This document shows, in pieces, positions 4,810-13,035 of a stretch of DNA of 64,000 nt. The position numbers and the translations under genes were made by a program. The stretch's first letter is position 1, and the number at the start of each line of letters is the position of its first letter. Location: the NCBI GenBank assembly GCA_021299375.1, contig JAJTGR010000069.1, positions 1-64,000 on the forward strand. Reading direction: 5' to 3'. The notes below the pieces were generated by a model. It was not told the origin of the DNA. It ran no database searches and was given only the letters and a program-made list of their open reading frames with translations. The DNA comes from Gemmatimonadota bacterium (GTDB taxonomy: Bacteria > Gemmatimonadota > Gemmatimonadetes > Gemmatimonadales > Gemmatimonadaceae).

Positions 4810-5310
4810 TTACTGGACCGTGATCTTGCCCTTCATGCCCATCGCGAGGTGCGGCGTGCAGTGGTAGTCGTACGTACCAGCCGGGACGCCGGCAAAGGAG
4901 ATCGTGTAGTCCTCGTTGGCGTTGAGCAGCATCTTGCCCGAGAGCTCACCCGCCTGCTCCGGCATGTTCGCCAGGAGGGCCGACTTGGCTCCGGCCGAAA
5001 GCGTGGCCGGGTCGAACGCCACGTTGTGCGGGCCGCCCGAGACCATCACAAACTTGATGCCGTCGCCGGCCTTGATCGTGATCTCGGCGGGCTCGAACCG
5101 ATAGCCCTGCCCGTCACCCACCATGTTCACCGTGTGCGTGGTGCCCGTGATCGGGGCCATCGCACCGGCGGCCGGAGCCGCCGCAGGAGCCGGCGCCGCT
5201 TCCGCGGCCGGCGCGGCCGCCGAATCCGTCGTCGCCGCCTTGTCACCACCACCGCACGCGCCGAGCAGGATCGCCGCGCCCGTCACCACCGCAAAGCCGA
5301 GAAACCGCAT
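4810..5310 (-). CDS. Lipoprotein cupredoxin (plastocyanin/azurin-like)
   Basis: The 166-residue precursor has a lipoprotein signal with lipobox LLGAC (Cys19) followed by an Ala/Pro-rich linker (about 28-55). The cupredoxin domain fills 58-166 and keeps the type 1 copper ligands: His95 in GGPHNVAF, Cys151 and His154 in DYHCTPHLAMGM, and Met157. It should be a membrane-anchored periplasmic electron carrier. A GGAGG ribosome site lies 9 nt before the ATG. The upstream region holds three adjacent palindromes, including a perfect CRP/FNR-type site, so respiratory or carbon-linked control is likely. The gene is divergent from the his operon and monocistronic. Confidence 0.9.
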   Translation of the reverse strand: MRFLGFAVVTGAAILLGACGGGDKAATTDSAAAPAAEAAPAPAAAPAAGAMAPITGTTHTVNMVGDGQGYRFEPAEITIKAGDGIKFVMVSGGPHNVAFDPATLSAGAKSALLANMPEQAGELSGKMLLNANEDYTISFAGVPAGTYDYHCTPHLAMGMKGKITVQ

Positions 5311-5385: not shown

Positions 5386-5403
5386 TTGTGAACTTATTCA
5401 CAA
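5386..5403. promoter_or_regulatory. CRP/FNR-family operator TTGTGAACTTATTCACAA
   Basis: The site has perfect 7-bp half-sites TTGTGAA and TTCACAA around a 4-bp centre and matches the CRP core TGTGA-N6-TCACA exactly. It lies 76 nt upstream of the cupredoxin ATG and about 40 nt upstream of the proposed his -35 box, so it could serve either divergent promoter. The regulator is a CRP/FNR superfamily member by motif; which one cannot be told. Confidence 0.6.
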
Positions 5404-5442: not shown

Positions 5443-5471
5443 TTGACGCCTACCGGAGCGGCGACTACCGT
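5443..5471 (+). promoter_or_regulatory. Predicted his operon promoter
   Basis: TTGACG at 5443-5448 and TACCGT at 5466-5471 are separated by exactly 17 nt. The -35 matches sigma70 consensus in 5 of 6 positions; the -10 is weak (TA and final T). Transcription would start around 5478-5480, i.e. at or next to the ATG of the leader peptide, which would make that mRNA leaderless. Confidence 0.5.
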
Positions 5472-5479
5472 TTTCCCCC

Positions 5480-5563
5480 ATGCCGACGTTCTGCTCCGCC
5501 CACCACCACACGCATTATGGCCACGGCCCGACGGGTCGGGGCGCGGTGTGCATGGCGGCGTAA
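5480..5563 (+). CDS. hisL: His operon leader peptide (attenuator control)
   Basis: A 27-codon frame, too short for ordinary gene calling, starts at ATG 5480 and stops at TAA 5561-5563. It contains the run HHHTHYGH, five histidine codons in eight (5501-5524). It is followed 37 nt later by an intrinsic terminator and then hisG. This is the arrangement of classical his attenuation: stalling at His codons when charged tRNA-His is scarce favours an antiterminator. No Shine-Dalgarno sequence is visible; the promoter position suggests a leaderless transcript. The assignment rests on codon content and position, and is not from homology. Confidence 0.85.
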   Translation: MPTFCSAHHHTHYGHGPTGRGAVCMAA

Positions 5564-5600
5564 GGCGCGAGCAGCGCTCCCGGCACTCCAGCGACCTGCG

Positions 5601-5626
5601 GCCCGTCCTTCGGACGGGCTTTTTTT
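5601..5626 (+). terminator. His attenuator (intrinsic terminator)
   Basis: An 8-bp stem GCCCGTCC/GGACGGGC with loop TTC is followed by seven T residues. It lies between the leader peptide stop (5563) and hisG (5664), so it should end transcription before the structural genes when histidine is plentiful. A competing pairing is possible between 5537-5544 (CGGGGCGC) and 5598-5605 (GCGGCCCG), 7 of 8 bases complementary, which would destroy the terminator stem. Confidence 0.85.
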
Positions 5627-5663
5627 GTTTCCCGGTGCTTCGTATCCCGTTTCCCGAGTTTCC

Positions 5664-6542
5664 ATGCTGCGCATTGCCCTGCCCAACAAAGGCCGTCTGA
5701 GCGACGAGACCCGCGAGCTGTTCAACGACGCCGGCCTCGAGGTCCGGTCGTCGGGGGACCGCGCCCTGACGGCGTCTCTCGGCGGTGAGTTCGAGGCCAT
5801 CTTCGTCCGCGCCCAGGACATCCCGGAGTTCGTGGCCGACGGTGCCGCCGACGCCGGCGTGACCGGCTGGGACCTGGTCAGCGAATCGGGCCGGTCGCTC
5901 GCCTCGCATCTCGACCTGGGGTTCGGCAAGTGCCGGCTGGTGGTCGCAGCCAAGGACGATTCGGGCATTCGGCAGATCGACGACATGGGACGCGATGGCC
6001 AGCCGGTTCGGGTGGCCACGGTGTTCCCGAACATCACCCGCGCGTTCTTCGCCGAGCGTGGCCGGCCGGTGGACGTGGTCCCGGTGTCGGGTGCCGCCGA
6101 GATCGCCCCGCACCTCGGCATCGCCGACGTGGTGGTCGACCTCACCTCCACCGGCAGCACGCTGCGCGTGAACGGCCTGCGTGAGCTTGAAACGGTGCTG
6201 CGCTCAAGCGCGCACCTGATTACCAGCACGGGTGGCCCACGCGGGGGTGACCCGGCGCGGGGCCGGGAGCTGGAGGACCTGGTGACCGCACTGGCGTCGG
6301 TGATCCGCGCCCGCGGCCAGCGGTACCTCATGGCCAATGTGCCGCGCACGGCGCTGGCACAGGTGCGCGAGGTGCTCCCGGGACTCAACGGCCCCACCGT
6401 CATCGAGATCGCCGAATCGAGTCAGTATGTGGCGGTACACGCGGTGGTGAGCGCCAGCGCCATCTACCGCACCATCTCGCAGCTGCGCGCCTTGGGCGGC
6501 GAAGGCATTCTGGTCACGCGCATCGAGAGGCTGGTGCCGTGA
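5664..6542 (+). CDS. hisG: ATP phosphoribosyltransferase, long form
   Basis: HisG catalyses the first step of histidine synthesis, joining ATP and PRPP to N1-(5-phosphoribosyl)-ATP. The 292-residue length and the C-terminal segment ending LRALGGEGILVTRIERLVP show the long form with its own regulatory domain, so no HisZ is needed. Family motifs include LRIALPNKGRL at the N-terminus and DLTSTGSTLRVNGL in the PRPP region. The ATG at 5664 follows the attenuator by 37 nt; the frame is open further upstream, but that stretch crosses the terminator. It overlaps hisD by 4 nt (GTGA). Confidence 0.96.
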   Translation: MLRIALPNKGRLSDETRELFNDAGLEVRSSGDRALTASLGGEFEAIFVRAQDIPEFVADGAADAGVTGWDLVSESGRSLASHLDLGFGKCRLVVAAKDDSGIRQIDDMGRDGQPVRVATVFPNITRAFFAERGRPVDVVPVSGAAEIAPHLGIADVVVDLTSTGSTLRVNGLRELETVLRSSAHLITSTGGPRGGDPARGRELEDLVTALASVIRARGQRYLMANVPRTALAQVREVLPGLNGPTVIEIAESSQYVAVHAVVSASAIYRTISQLRALGGEGILVTRIERLVP

Positions 6543-7882
6543 GTGCCTCCACGTCTGTGGCGTTGCGCGCGCGCGGGCCGCTGGCGGCGCTCGATGCCGA
6601 CACGCGCCGGGCGCTCGTCGACCGTGCCTCCACCACCGAGGCCACGGTGCGCACCCGCACGGCCGCCATCATCGAGCAGGTGCGCACGCGCGGTGACGCC
6701 GCGCTGAGGGATTTCGCGCGCGACTTCGACCACGTGACGCTCACGGCCCTCGAGGTTCCGCGTGCCGAGTGGGACGCGGCGCTGGCCACGCTCGACAGCG
6801 GGCTGCGGCAGTCGCTGGAGCGCGCGGCGCGCAACATCGCCACGGTGCACGCGGCCTTCCGCCCCACCGAGACGGTGTGCTCGCCCGAACCCGGCATCAC
6901 GGTCGGGCGCCGCCCCGACCCGCTGCAGCGTGTGGGCATCTACGCCCCCGGCGGCCGCGCCGCCTATCCCAGCTCGCTGCTCATGGGCGCCATCCCGGCC
7001 CGCGTGGCCGGTGTGCACGAGGTGATCGTCTGCTCGCCGCCGGGGCCAGGCGGGCGTCCGTCGGCGGTCGTGCTCGCCGCGGCCGCGCTGGCGGGTGTCG
7101 ATCGCGTGTTCGCCCTCGGTGGCGCCGGCGCGATTGCCGCCATGGCGCTGGGCACCGCGACCGTACCGCGCGTGGACCGCATCATGGGCCCGGGCAACGC
7201 GTATGTGGCCGAGGCGAAGCTGCAGCTGGTGTCGGCGGTGGCGATCGACGCGCCGGCCGGCCCCAGCGAGCTGCTGGTGCTGGCCGATGACAGCGCCGAC
7301 GCCGACGCGATCGCCCGTGAGATGATGGCGCAGGCCGAGCATGATCCCGATGCCGCGGTGGTGACCGTGCTGGCCGGCGACGACGTGGGTGTGGCCGCCC
7401 TGGCCGACGCCGTGGTGGCCGCGCTCGATGCGCAGCTGGCCACGGCGCCGCGCGCCGACGTGGTGCGCACCTCGCTGGCGGCGCGCGGGGGCATCGTCAC
7501 GGCGCCGACGCTCGCCGAGGGCATCGCCTTCGCGAGCGAGTGGGCCGCCGAACATCTGCTGCTGGTGGTGCGCGACGACGTCCGCGACGAAACGCTGGCG
7601 GCGCTGCGCAGCGCCGGCACCATTTTCGTGGGGGCATCGAGTTCGGTGGCGTACGGTGACTACATGACCGGCGCCAACCATGTGCTCCCCACCGCCGGCG
7701 CGGGGCGCAGCTACTCGGGGCTGTCCACGCTCGACTTCGTGCGCTGGACGACCTGGCAGGAGGTCACGCCCGACGCTGCCGCCCGACTCGCCGACGATGT
7801 GGGCCGCTTTGCCGACGCCGAAGGGCTTCCCGCGCACGCCGCCGCCGCGCGCGCGTGGCGTATCGCGGAGGGCACCCGATGA
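6539..7882 (+). CDS. hisD: Histidinol dehydrogenase
   Basis: HisD oxidises L-histidinol to histidine in two NAD-dependent steps. The 447-residue protein has the expected length and the motifs RVGIYAPGGRAAYPSSLLM, VDRIMGPGNAYVAEAKLQL, DAPAGPSELLV and AEHDPDAAVV with the conserved metal-site Gln/His. The GTG start at 6539 overlaps the hisG stop, indicating translational coupling. It ends in an ATGA overlap with hisC. Confidence 0.96.
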   Translation: MSASTSVALRARGPLAALDADTRRALVDRASTTEATVRTRTAAIIEQVRTRGDAALRDFARDFDHVTLTALEVPRAEWDAALATLDSGLRQSLERAARNIATVHAAFRPTETVCSPEPGITVGRRPDPLQRVGIYAPGGRAAYPSSLLMGAIPARVAGVHEVIVCSPPGPGGRPSAVVLAAAALAGVDRVFALGGAGAIAAMALGTATVPRVDRIMGPGNAYVAEAKLQLVSAVAIDAPAGPSELLVLADDSADADAIAREMMAQAEHDPDAAVVTVLAGDDVGVAALADAVVAALDAQLATAPRADVVRTSLAARGGIVTAPTLAEGIAFASEWAAEHLLLVVRDDVRDETLAALRSAGTIFVGASSSVAYGDYMTGANHVLPTAGAGRSYSGLSTLDFVRWTTWQEVTPDAAARLADDVGRFADAEGLPAHAAAARAWRIAEGTR

Positions 7883-8967
7883 CCGTTCCCATGGAAGCAC
7901 GGGACCGACTCGCTTTCGCCCGCGCGCTGTACGACGACGTACCCCTGTACGACCCCAAGCGGAGTCCGGTGGCGCTCGACCTCACCGACAACACGAATCT
8001 CTGGGGTATGCCGCCGGTGGCGGAGCGCACGCTGCGGGAGTTGCCGGTGGCCCGCATCACACGCTATCCGTCGCTCTATGCCGCAGAGCTCAAGGAGGCG
8101 TTGGCGGCATTCGTGGGCGCCACGCCCGACCGACTCGTGACAGGGTGCGGCTCGGATGACATTCTCGACAGCGCCATGCGCGCGTTCGGGGAGCCAGGCA
8201 GTGTGGTGGCGAGCAGCGAGCCGAGCTTCGCGATGATCCCCATCTTCGCCCGCATGAACGGACTGCAGTACGTGGGCATCACCGAGTTGCCCGACCACCA
8301 GCCCGACATCGATGCGCTGCTGGCGACGAAGCCGCGCATCCTGTACCTGTGTTCACCCAACAACCCTACCGGCGCGCTGCTCTCGCGCTCGGCGATCGAA
8401 CGGGTGGTGCGCGAAGCGCCGGGCGTGGTCTTCCTCGACGAGGCGTATGCCGAGTTCGCGGGCGTGTCGGCGGTGGACCTCGCCATGCAGGTGGACAACC
8501 TGCTGGTCATCCGCACCATGTCCAAGGCGTTCGGTCTGGCGGGGCTGCGCGTGGGGTACGCCATCGGCGCACCGTCGCTGGTGCGCGACGTGGAGAAGTC
8601 GCGCGGGCCGTACAAGCTGAACGCGATGGCCGAACAGGTGGCACTGGCGGCACTGCGGCACGACATGGCGTGGGTGAAGGCCCACGTGGCGTTGGCGGTG
8701 ACCAACCGTGACCGGCTCGCGGCGGCGCTGCGCGATCGTGGCTATGCCCCGCTACCTTCGCACGCGAACTACCTGTGCGTACCCCTTGCGCGTGCGGTCG
8801 AGGTGGGCCAGGCGCTGCGGGCGCACGGCGTGGCGGCCCGTCCGTTCCCGGGGCTGCCGCACGTGGGCGATGCGCTGCGCATCAGTGTGGGGCCGTGGGA
8901 GCTGCTGACGCAGTTCCTTGCGGCATTCGACGACGCCACCGCCGACGTGTACGGGTGGGCCTCATGA
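7879..8967 (+). CDS. hisC: Histidinol-phosphate aminotransferase
   Basis: HisC transfers an amino group from glutamate to imidazole-acetol phosphate using PLP. The 362-residue protein has fold type I aminotransferase signatures: LCSPNNPTGALLS, VVFLDEAYAEFAG and the PLP-lysine region RTMSKAFGLAGLRVGYAIG. The ATG at 7879 is used because it overlaps the hisD stop by 4 nt; the upstream in-frame ATG lies within hisD. It overlaps hisH by 4 nt. Confidence 0.95.
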   Translation: MTVPMEARDRLAFARALYDDVPLYDPKRSPVALDLTDNTNLWGMPPVAERTLRELPVARITRYPSLYAAELKEALAAFVGATPDRLVTGCGSDDILDSAMRAFGEPGSVVASSEPSFAMIPIFARMNGLQYVGITELPDHQPDIDALLATKPRILYLCSPNNPTGALLSRSAIERVVREAPGVVFLDEAYAEFAGVSAVDLAMQVDNLLVIRTMSKAFGLAGLRVGYAIGAPSLVRDVEKSRGPYKLNAMAEQVALAALRHDMAWVKAHVALAVTNRDRLAAALRDRGYAPLPSHANYLCVPLARAVEVGQALRAHGVAARPFPGLPHVGDALRISVGPWELLTQFLAAFDDATADVYGWAS

Positions 8968-9602
8968 GCGACCGGACTCGGGTTCGGGTGACGGTATTCG
9001 ACTACGGCGCCGGCAATCTGCACTCGCTCGTCAAGGCGCTGGAAGCTGGCGGCGCCGTGGTGCACGTGGAGACCGACGCCGCGAGGGCCGTGCGGGACAC
9101 CGACGCGTTGATTCTTCCCGGCGTGGGGGCCTTCGCTCCGGCCGCCGAGCGACTGGCCGGGGGACGCGATGCCATGCGCGACGCGCTGCTCGGCGGGCTG
9201 CCCGCGCTGGGCATCTGCCTCGGCATGCAGCTCCTCTTCGACGCCAGCGACGAAGGCCCGGGCGCTGGCCTCGGCATCGTGCCGGGCCGCGTGACGAAGC
9301 TGACCGCCGAACGGGTGCCGCAGATCGGATGGAACCGCCTCGAAGCCGTGCGTGAGCCACTGCTGCAGGCGGCGCAGCTCTCCACGGCGTACTATGCCAA
9401 TTCGTTCGTTTGCCGTCCCACGTTGGAAGGCGAGGGGTTCGTGTCTGCCTGGAGTGAACACGAGGGCGACCGCTTCCCGGCGAGTGTGCGGCGCGGCAAC
9501 GTGATCGGCACCCAGTTCCACCCCGAGAAGTCGAGCGCGCCCGGTGTGGCGTTCGTACGCGAGTTCCTCTCCTTCGCCTCATCACTCCGGAGCACGTCAT
9601 GA
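8964..9602 (+). CDS. hisH: Imidazole glycerol phosphate synthase, glutaminase subunit
   Basis: HisH hydrolyses glutamine and channels ammonia to HisF. The 212-residue protein is a class I glutamine amidotransferase with the nucleophile Cys85 in ALGICLGMQLLF and the His-Glu pair in GTQFHPEKSS. The N-terminal VFDYGAGNLHSLVKAL is typical of HisH. The ATG overlaps the hisC stop by 4 nt and the gene itself overlaps hisA by 4 nt. Its partner hisF is encoded two genes downstream. Confidence 0.95.
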   Translation: MSDRTRVRVTVFDYGAGNLHSLVKALEAGGAVVHVETDAARAVRDTDALILPGVGAFAPAAERLAGGRDAMRDALLGGLPALGICLGMQLLFDASDEGPGAGLGIVPGRVTKLTAERVPQIGWNRLEAVREPLLQAAQLSTAYYANSFVCRPTLEGEGFVSAWSEHEGDRFPASVRRGNVIGTQFHPEKSSAPGVAFVREFLSFASSLRSTS

Positions 9603-10312
9603 TCGCCATTCCCGCCGTCGACCTGCGTGGGGGCAAGTGCGTGCAGCTCGTGGGTGGCGACTACGACGCCCAGAAGGTGCAGCTCGACGATCCGCCCTCG
9701 GTGGCGCGCGACTGGATCCGCACCGGCTTCAACCGGCTGCACATCGTCGACCTCGACGCGGCCACCGGGCGCGGGCACAACACCGAGGTCATTCGCGACC
9801 TGCTCCGCGACGCGGGGGTGCCGGTGCAGGTGGGCGGTGGCGTGCGTCACGAGGCGCGCATTGAACAGCTGCTGGACGAAGGCGCCGACTGGGTGGTGGT
9901 GGGCACCCGCGCCGTGGAAGACGAAGACTGGCGCGGGGAGATGGCGCATCGCTATCCGGGGCGCCTCATCATCGCCGCCGACGTGCGCGAGCGCGCCGTG
10001 GTGACCAAGGGGTGGGCGGAGACGTCGCGCCTGAACGTCATCGACTTCGTGGAAGAGTTGAACGGCTTGCCGCTGGGCGGCGTACTGGTGACCGCCGTGC
10101 ACCTCGAGGGCAGAATGGAAGGCACCGACCTGCCGCTCATGGAAGACGTGGCTGAGGCGAGCGCGTGGCCGGTGTATGCGTCGGGCGGCGTGACGACGTT
10201 GGATGATATGCGAGCGCTCGAGCATCGCGGCCTGGCCGGCGCGGTGCTGGGCATGGCCCTGTACACCGGCACGCTCGATGCGCGCCGCCTGGCTGAGGAG
10301 TTCGGCGCATGA
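9599..10312 (+). CDS. hisA: ProFAR isomerase
   Basis: HisA isomerises ProFAR to PRFAR. The 237-residue TIM barrel has the typical beginning MIAIPAVDLRGGKCVQLVGGD, the phosphate-binding segments VGGGVR and YASGGVTTLDDM, and catalytic Asp residues in AVDLRGG and VTAVHLEGRMEGTD. It overlaps hisH and hisB by 4 nt each. The resemblance to HisF in this same operon is the usual paralogy of the two barrels. Confidence 0.95.
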   Translation: MIAIPAVDLRGGKCVQLVGGDYDAQKVQLDDPPSVARDWIRTGFNRLHIVDLDAATGRGHNTEVIRDLLRDAGVPVQVGGGVRHEARIEQLLDEGADWVVVGTRAVEDEDWRGEMAHRYPGRLIIAADVRERAVVTKGWAETSRLNVIDFVEELNGLPLGGVLVTAVHLEGRMEGTDLPLMEDVAEASAWPVYASGGVTTLDDMRALEHRGLAGAVLGMALYTGTLDARRLAEEFGA

Positions 10313-10857
10313 CCGTCGTGGTGAGAGAATCGAAGGAAACGCAGATCCGCATCGCACTGGGGGAGGTGGGGCAGAGCGACCACGGAACGTCGATCGAAAC
10401 GACGGAGCCCTTCCTCGACCACATGCTCGTGGCGCTGTCCAAGTACTCGGGGGTCACGCTCGACATCCAGGCCAGGGGCGACCTGCGCCACCACCTCATC
10501 GAGGATGTGGCCATCGCGCTCGGCCAGGCGTTCGCCGCGCACACGCCGGCCACCTGTGCACGCTACGGCGAGCGCACCGTGCCCATGGACGACGCGCTGG
10601 TGCAGGTGGTGCTCGACCTGGGGGGCCGCCCGTACTACCGCGGGCCGTTGCCGTCGCACCTGTACGACCACGTCTTCCGCTCCTTCGCCGACAACGCCAA
10701 GGCCACACTGCACGTGCGTGTGCTGCGCGGCACCGATCGGCACCACATCATCGAGGCGGCCTTCAAGGCGCTCGGCTTCGCGCTGCGCGAGGCGCTGGTG
10801 GAGTCGGGCACGGTGTTCAGTACCAAGGGCTCCGTGAAACTCGAGATCAATCCCTGA
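10309..10857 (+). CDS. hisB: Imidazoleglycerol-phosphate dehydratase (monofunctional)
   Basis: The 182-residue protein contains only the IGP dehydratase domain, not the HAD phosphatase domain found in enterobacterial HisB. Motifs include TEPFLDHMLVALSKYSG and GDLRHHLIEDVAIALGQAF, with a second metal-binding set in LRGTDRHHIIEAAFKALG. The missing histidinol-phosphatase activity is supplied by the hisN gene two positions downstream. The stop codon overlaps the hisF start (TGATG). Confidence 0.95.
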   Translation: MTVVVRESKETQIRIALGEVGQSDHGTSIETTEPFLDHMLVALSKYSGVTLDIQARGDLRHHLIEDVAIALGQAFAAHTPATCARYGERTVPMDDALVQVVLDLGGRPYYRGPLPSHLYDHVFRSFADNAKATLHVRVLRGTDRHHIIEAAFKALGFALREALVESGTVFSTKGSVKLEINP

Positions 10858-11630
10858 TGCTGACGCGACGCGTGATCGTCTGCCTCGATGTAAAGGGCGG
10901 ACGCGTAGTGAAGGGCGTGAACTTCGTCGGGCTGCGCGATGTCGGCGATCCGGTCTCGCTCTCCGAGCGCTACGAAGCCGAAGGCGCCGACGAGATCACC
11001 TTCCTCGACATCTCGGCCAGTTCCGAGGAGCGGGCCACGCTGCTGGAGGTGGCGCGGCGCACGGCCGAGCGGCTGTTCATTCCACTCACCATCGGCGGCG
11101 GCGTGCGTACGCCTGACGATGTCGCGCGGGCGCTGCGCGCTGGTGCCGACAAGGTGTCGCTCAACTCGGCGGCGGTGACCAGTCCCGAGGTGCTCACGGC
11201 GGCCGCCGATCGCTTCGGTGCCCAGTGCGTGGTGGCCAGCATCGACGCCAAGCAGAACGCCGAGGGCATCTACAAGGTGTGGGTCAAGGGCGGCCGTGAG
11301 GAAACGCCACTCGAAGCCGTGGCGTGGGCGCAGGAGTGCGTGGCGCGCGGTGCGGGGGAGATCCTGCTCACCAGCATCGACCGCGACGGCGTGCGCACCG
11401 GCTACGACCTGGCCATTACGCGGGCGGTGGCCGATGCGGTGAACGTGCCGGTGATTGCGTCGGGGGGCGCCGGCAACGCGCAGCATCTGGTGGACGCCGT
11501 GGTGCAGGGGCACGCCGACGCGGTGCTGGTGGCGGGCATGCTGCATGACGGGCTCACCACGGTGCACGACCTCAAGCAGGTGATGCGCGATGCCGGGCTG
11601 CCGGTGCGCGAGCTGGTGGGGGTCTCATGA
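10857..11630 (+). CDS. hisF: Imidazole glycerol phosphate synthase, cyclase subunit
   Basis: HisF condenses ammonia from HisH with PRFAR to give IGP and AICAR. The 257-residue TIM barrel begins [23 protein letters not shown] and has [36 protein letters not shown] and [13 protein letters not shown]. The ATG at 10857 shares one base with the hisB stop; a longer open frame upstream is only the shadow of hisAB. It overlaps hisN by 4 nt. Confidence 0.96.
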
Positions 11631-12418
11631 GCCGTGAGTCACTCAGCACGCTGCTGCAGGCGGCGGCCGATGTGGCCGAGTATGCGGCCAGCGTCGCCAT
11701 GCGCTGGTATCGCACGAACGTGCAGGTGGAGACCAAAGGCGACGGCTCGCCCGTGACCATCGCCGACCGGGAGGCCGAGCGGGCGGCGCGCACGTGGCTG
11801 GAGGAGCGGTTTCCCGACGACGGCTTGTTCGGCGAGGAATTCGACCACGTGCGCCCCAACGCGAAGCGCCGGTGGATTCTCGACCCCATTGATGGCACCA
11901 AGGCGTTCGTGCGCGGCGTACCGCTGTGGGGTACGCTGGTGGCCTGCTGCGAGGGCGACACGGTGCTCGCCGGTGCGGCGTGCTATCCGGTGGTGAAGGA
12001 GCTGGTGGCCGCTGCCCCGGGTGAAGGGTGCTGGTGGAATGGCTCGCGGGCCACGGTGTCCACCGTGAGCGCGCTGCGCGAGGCCACGGCCCTCATTACC
12101 GACGAGCGCTTTCTCGAGCGACCGCATCGTCGCGAACCGTGGTTCACCCTCGCTTCGCAGGTGGCGGTGGCCCGCACGTGGGGCGACTGCTATGGCTACC
12201 TGCTCGTGGCGACGGGCCGCGCCGAGATCATGGTGGATGACATCGTGAATCCGTGGGATGCTGCCGCCGTGTATCCCCTCATCACCGAAGCCGGGGGGCG
12301 CTTCAGCGATTGGCGCGGGCGTGACACGGCGTTCGGCGGCGACATCATCGCCACCAATGCGGCGCTGGCCAACGCAGCGCGGCGCCCCTTGCTGGAAGGC
12401 TCCGGAGTACAACCATGA
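11627..12418 (+). CDS. hisN: Histidinol-phosphate phosphatase, inositol monophosphatase family
   Basis: The 263-residue protein belongs to the Mg-dependent, lithium-sensitive phosphatase family: [34 protein letters not shown] and the late [18 protein letters not shown] motif. The segment [16 protein letters not shown] is typical of the HisN branch that dephosphorylates L-histidinol phosphate. Its place between hisF and hisIE, with 4-nt overlaps on both sides, and the single-domain hisB support this role over inositol phosphatase. Confidence 0.92.
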
Positions 12419-13035
12419 CCGCCCCGTTGCTCGACCTCGACACGCTCAACTTCACCAAGGGCAACGGGCTCGTCACCGTGGTCACGCAGGACGCCCACAC
12501 CGGTGCCGTGCTCATGGTGGCCCACGCCGACCGCGAGGCGCTGGAGTACACGCTGCGCACCGGCGAGATGCACTACCACTCGCGCAGCCGCGGGCGGTGG
12601 CACAAAGGTGGCACCAGCGGCAACGTGCAGCGGGTGGTATCGCTCACCACCGACTGCGACCGCGACGCGGTGCTGGCGCGTGTGCTGCCGGCCGGTCCGG
12701 CGTGTCACGAAGGGACCACCTCGTGCTTCCGCGACGAGGCGCTGCGCGCCGATGTCCTGAGCGCGCTCGACGCGACCATCGCGTCGCGGTCGGTGCTCGC
12801 GGTGGCCGAGGGCGAGAAGCCCAGCTACACCCAGACGCTGCTCGGCGACCGGAACCTGCGCCTCAAGAAGCTCGGCGAGGAGGCGGTGGAGCTGGCCACG
12901 GCGTGTGTGGACGGTGACCGCGAGCGGGCCACCGAGGAGACGGCGGACCTGATCTATCACGCGCTGGTGGCGCTGCGCGCGGTGGGCGGGTCGTTGGATG
13001 ATGTGCGGGCGGTGCTGGCGGGGCGGGCGCGGTAG
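12415..13035 (+). CDS. hisIE: Bifunctional phosphoribosyl-AMP cyclohydrolase / phosphoribosyl-ATP pyrophosphatase
   Basis: The 206-residue protein fuses HisI (about 1-115) and HisE (about 120-206), catalysing the second and third steps of the pathway. HisI shows [19 protein letters not shown] and the metal-binding TTDCDRDAV and CHEGTTSCF. HisE shows [21 protein letters not shown] and a downstream ETADLIYH, the MazG-type Glu/Asp motif. It is the last gene of the his operon and ends 37 nt before a convergent gene; no clear terminator is seen in that gap. Confidence 0.95.

Follow-up and report, generated by a model that had tools for sequence, protein, structure and literature searches.

In the window, i.e. 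the whole 64,000-nucleotide stretch of DNA analysed here, transcription of the his operon is in our judgement controlled by a ribosome-mediated attenuator in which the leader peptide is made on a leaderless transcript, a reading to which we assign a probability of roughly 0.87. The histidine codons, the position of the promoter, the terminator and the antiterminator complementarity were established by sequence comparison, which supports the classical his attenuator on a leaderless transcript proposed in the first-pass annotation. Direct reading confirmed the 27-codon frame with its HHHTHYGH run described there, and the 8-bp terminator stem, the run of seven T residues and the subsequent hisG gene were found as well. 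Judged from profile matches and, for hisH, from the reading of the ORF, the nine genes from hisG to hisIE are a complete pathway operon, those behind hisG covering 6539..13035. The features are compiled in Table 1.

Table 1. Positions of the attenuator elements and his genes in the window, and of the DAHP synthase leader region elsewhere in the same genome
Feature	Coordinates	Strand	Basis
-35 box TTGACG	5443..5448	+	sequence
-10 box TACCGT	5466..5471	+	sequence; 17-nt spacer from -35 box, ends 8 nt before leader ATG
Leader peptide ORF, MPTFCSAHHHTHYGHGPTGRGAVCMAA, 27 codons plus TAA (5561-5563)	5480..5563	+	sequence; conserved in 88 loci
Regulatory codons HHHTHYGH, five His, codons 8-15	5501..5524	+	CAC/CAT third-base variation
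Leader hairpin CCCGAC/GTCGGG after last His codon, candidate anti-antiterminator	5527..5540	+	fold; 71% standard pairs
Antiterminator strand GACGGGTC, within leader ORF (codons PTGRG region)	5530..5537	+	pairs with 5600-5607
Intrinsic terminator hairpin, 8-bp stem 5601-5608/5612-5619, loop 5609-5611	5600..5619	+	96% standard pairs, 88 loci
Terminator T7 tract	5620..5626	+	sequence
hisG, first structural gene	5664..6542	+	TIGR00070 (E 8e-63) and TIGR03455, over cut-off
hisD	6539-7882	+	NCBIfam profile
hisC	7855-8967	+	NCBIfam profile, best-ranked but below curated cut-off
hisH	about 8964-9602	+	reading of ORF only, no profile
hisA	9599-10312	+	NCBIfam profile
hisB	10309-10857	+	NCBIfam profile, best-ranked but below curated cut-off
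hisF	10869-11630	+	NCBIfam profile
hisN	11627-12418	+	NCBIfam profile
hisIE	12415-13035	+	NCBIfam profile
DAHP synthase leader region (L132)	G000:C36:4850-5900	minus	NF006421/PRK08673 over cut-off for DAHP synthase

The hisG gene was sought in 61 related genomes and in contigs of named genomes, and the upstream regions were extracted. In all 28 congeneric loci for which upstream DNA was present (window included), hisG was preceded by a histidine-rich ORF with a promoter directly adjoining its start, and by a terminator. Thus the His run, whose conservation in close relatives had been set beforehand as a test capable of refuting the reading, was kept in 28 of 28 cases. Similar leaders also occurred in the other members of the family, in a second family (several genera) and in additional MAGs of Gemmatimonadota, some of them labelled Longimicrobiales; the comparison of hisG upstream regions suggested in the first-pass annotation revealed that His run, terminator and start-abutting promoter are retained throughout the family and the order and also outside them. 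Altogether, 88 distinct His-rich leaders 5' of hisG were collected, mostly from Gemmatimonadota and six from Myxococcota. The leader was absent from loci L037-L042, in which hisG is not the first gene of the operon, as expected because the switch is promoter-proximal.

Several histidine codons stood in the leader before the his operon throughout, five within eight codons in the window and between 4 and 9 in the 88 loci. When the 28 sequences of the genus were aligned over the HHHxHxxH run and compared at the codon level, the minority base occurred 1, 7, 6, 7 and 2 times at the third position of the run's His codons 1, 2, 3, 5 and 8, respectively, whereas first and second positions of these codons showed minority counts of 0-1 and were thus nearly fixed. 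In the spacer codons of the run, it was the first or second base that varied. Counted in the complete set of leaders, both histidine codons were used about equally (CAC 269, CAT 263). Since the exchange of CAC and CAT is synonymous and the first two bases hardly change, these data support selection for histidine in the peptide rather than for the RNA sequence alone.

The predicted promoter, read in the first-pass annotation as TTGACG, 17 nt and TACCGT, stood as described, and the transcription start placed there exactly at the ATG was widened to a short interval. The 8 nt between the -10 box and the leader ATG (5480), TTTCCCCC, consist of pyrimidines only, so that no purine follows the -10 box until the A of the ATG. 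RNA polymerase favours a purine as the starting base. Given this spacing, transcription could begin 0-3 nt before the ATG, which would make the 5' UTR too short for a Shine-Dalgarno sequence; from the earliest conceivable start, right behind the -10 box, the 5' UTR would measure at most 10 nt. The promoter thus lies too near the start codon to leave room for such a site, as the first-pass annotation had claimed in describing the leader as lacking one. In the 20 nt preceding the start, SD-like 4-mers were found in 4 of the 88 loci, all four within the -10 box, and no Shine-Dalgarno sequence was detected outside the -10 box in any of the 88. Due to this promoter geometry and the missing Shine-Dalgarno sequence, the leader ORF is apparently leaderless.

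A strictly defined promoter (TTGACA matched at 4 or more of its 6 positions, a spacer of 16-18 and TANNNT) ended 5-10 nt 5' of the leader start in 67 of the 88 loci, compared with 45 of 13,715 background positions (0.33%). The strict criterion was missed in the remaining 21 loci, which would suit a classical his attenuator that is transcribed from an unrecognised promoter farther upstream and carries an ordinary 5' UTR on a longer leader RNA. However, by inspection most of these 21 loci possess near-consensus boxes at the same position, and the enrichment over background together with the lack of Shine-Dalgarno sequences makes an ordinary 5' UTR unlikely. Leaderless initiation of the his leader may also not stand alone in this genome. 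The pattern TTGAC..TANNNT followed 5-10 nt on by an ATG, the only promoter pattern used in the hunt for further leaderless leaders, occurred at 20 sites genome-wide compared with 2 for a reversed-pattern control. Judged by eye, these sites mostly open long ORFs resembling TetR/MarR regulators or antitoxins, and because most of them thus open real-looking genes, leaderless starts seem to be a general habit of this Gemmatimonadota genome.

Between the leader ORF and hisG lies the intrinsic terminator. The gene upstream of the leader (4810-5310) is encoded on the minus strand, and the plus-strand terminator is therefore part of the his transcript. A mutually exclusive antiterminator was found as well, although not where it had been proposed: the pairing 5537-5544/5598-5605 is mismatched and only 63% paired in the relatives, and it was replaced by 5530-5537/5600-5607 with 86% standard pairs over the 88 loci, a value that fell to 27-47% when the register was slid by 1-2 nt. 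In some relatives both partners are altered, for example in L087 to GACAGGTC and GGCCTGTC. Taken alone, shuffle tests of the antiterminator at the individual loci gave weak evidence (median z -1.3). Because the 5530-5537/5600-5607 pairing is conserved, the conserved TGRG motif of the leader peptide probably reflects an RNA constraint. The leader hairpin 5527-5540, 71% paired in this register, is conserved less than the terminator and antiterminator helices.

In constrained folding of the window with a ribosome footprint, the switch was clear for His 8-12: with the ribosome placed there, the antiterminator value was 0.26-0.72, compared with 0.01 without a ribosome and 0.03 with a ribosome at the stop codon. 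When the ribosome was placed at His 15, the last codon of this kind, the terminator was favoured. At equilibrium the terminator won in most relatives even in the presence of a stalled ribosome, and no switch was visible in these. During the phase before the 3' arm emerges, the 5' arm was paired upstream to a larger extent with a stalled ribosome in 74 of the 88 loci (mean 0.78 with stalling versus 0.59); as the loci are related and hence non-independent, the p-value of this comparison is too optimistic. As the effect of stalling in the relatives appears mainly before emergence of the 3' arm, we favour a putative co-transcriptional, kinetic switch.

From these elements we infer the 5' end, ribosome stalling, the way in which ample histidine shifts the balance to the terminator, and how the operon responds to histidine, as follows. 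Transcription would begin at the leader ATG or within about 3 bases of it, and a ribosome would load straight onto the 5'-terminal start codon and translate behind the polymerase. When His-tRNA is scarce, the ribosome would stall in HHHTHYGH and disrupt upstream pairing in the leader, so that 5530-5537 is free to pair with the 5' arm of the terminator at 5600-5607; with the antiterminator formed, the terminator would be blocked and hisG to hisIE transcribed. When His-tRNA is plentiful, the ribosome would proceed, pairing would be restored in the leader hairpin 5527-5540 or in a longer ORF fold, and the terminator 5601-5619 with its T7 tract would end transcription.

The His-rich ORF might be real and the main regulation nevertheless different, either by constitutive partial termination, with which the dominance of the terminator at equilibrium in most relatives would agree, or by a leader peptide or short RNA acting in trans, as do the leader peptide and its short RNA of Sinorhizobium meliloti trpL (PMC7298713). 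The histidine codons, however, fit the his pathway encoded downstream, the complementarity of the antiterminator is conserved, and leaders are missing where hisG is internal to its operon, which renders regulation of this other kind very improbable. A T-box, by which some Firmicutes and Actinobacteria regulate their his genes (PMC9413887, PMC3896937), or another riboswitch, or a chance His-rich ORF beside an unrelated terminator is hardly credible, for no T-box or riboswitch covariance model matched the window region up to E 5, a density of at least five His in eight stop-free codons was reached in just 3 of 20,000 dinucleotide-preserving shuffles of the 221-nt region (three plus-strand frames), the ORF is conserved, with synonymous codon exchange, in 88 loci, and the terminator does not belong to the upstream minus-strand gene.

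The ribosome-mediated attenuator on a leaderless transcript was then set beside known systems. As in the enterobacterial his attenuator (RF00514 His_leader), a run of His codons in a short ORF is combined with a terminator ahead of the first his gene and competing pairings. Unlike that attenuator, the leader described here is apparently leaderless, and what is conserved in it is one antiterminator helix located within the ORF. Up to E 5, RF00514 gave no match in the region of the window examined, nor did it match in any genome of the same genus. One RF00514 match below cut-off in a genome of another family (G037:C48), in a stretch without an obvious his leader, was taken as spurious. His attenuators have been documented in Proteobacteria, and for some Firmicutes they have been predicted (PMC9413887). 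The predicted Firmicutes attenuators are likewise Rfam-negative and contain three to five His codons, a terminator and an antiterminator, whereas they belong to other phyla and are not described as leaderless in the relevant passages.

Leaderless leader peptides have been described for leuL, trpL and ilvL of Streptomyces (PMC8079986) and for ilvB of Corynebacterium (PMC5784534). These resemble the his leader in that the ORF lies at the 5' end of the transcript and carries codons for the amino acid concerned, in several cases followed by a terminator; they differ in amino acid and phylum, and their 5' ends were mapped by RNA-seq, whereas ours are predicted from sequence. In S. meliloti, the leader ORF's ATG is likewise the beginning of the attenuator RNA rnTrpL (PMC7298713), but that leader concerns Trp instead of His, and trans-acting roles have been demonstrated for it. 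Mycobacterial leaderless poly-Cys short ORFs are reported to act as attenuators for their own amino acid (Canestrari 2020, as cited in PMC13236596), but for cysteine and in Actinobacteria. Our literature searches on attenuators and leader peptides in Gemmatimonadetes and on leaderless transcripts in Gemmatimonas, in which subscription journals were thinly covered, returned nothing relevant, and neither did a search on his leaders of Myxococcus. The novelty is therefore the combination of leaderless transcript and his attenuator, and the phylum, not a new principle. Ribosome-mediated his attenuation, apparently leaderless, would be extended to a phylum for which no attenuator was found in the literature, and the his leaders would represent an RNA family absent from Rfam. 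The large natural alignment of 88 leaders can also serve to ask by what means ribosome loading on leaderless RNA is quick enough for control of a terminator lying about 140 nt farther on.

The six leaders from outside the Gemmatimonadota (L059, L061, L062, L063, L069 and L070) came from the Myxococcota genera Corallococcus, Pyxidicoccus, Archangium and Myxococcus, with HisG proteins 67-71% identical. In a quick tree of moderate branch support these HisG proteins were nested among those of Gemmatimonadota, and a similar His leader and terminator precede the genes. Nesting of HisG together with the same kind of leader suggests a possible joint transfer of his operon and attenuator involving Myxococcota. 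In addition, the HisG proteins of L107-L111, labelled BD2-11 or Gammaproteobacteria, fell inside the Gemmatimonadota cluster; no His leader was detected within 450 nt 5' of hisG in these loci.

Among the 20 promoter-ATG sites is one that opens MTQHAAAPLACRFYYVPTRMGPGTIGMRS, a frame of 29 codons with Phe-Tyr-Tyr, followed by a terminator and a gene for DAHP synthase. An aromatic codon run (FYY, YYY, WYF or WWW) was kept at the DAHP leader of the relatives L150-L167, L169, L170 and L177. Because GCATGGGCC of this leader can, by eye, pair with the terminator arm GGCCCGTGC, the region looks like a second leaderless attenuator, with Phe/Tyr codons, in the same genome. No Trp-rich leader was seen upstream of trpE in this genome. 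In the 96% complete assembly leuA (TIGR00973) had no match and ilvB (TIGR00118) was found as fragments only, hinting that branched-chain amino acid synthesis is missing or that the assembly has gaps. As a tentative wider reading, for which we see somewhat less than even odds, leaderless attenuators with the antiterminator inside the ORF may be ancestral in Gemmatimonadota for his and DAHP synthase, and the his operon may have passed with its switch to Myxococcota. If so, leaderless initiation would not be incidental but would have been selected as part of the mechanism, providing immediate ribosome loading behind the polymerase.

The reading frame of hisG is open upstream, through the attenuator, to a GTG at 5388, which would yield a protein of 384 instead of 292 aa. 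Automatic annotation could misplace the HisG start there, and the attenuator warns against such an extension.
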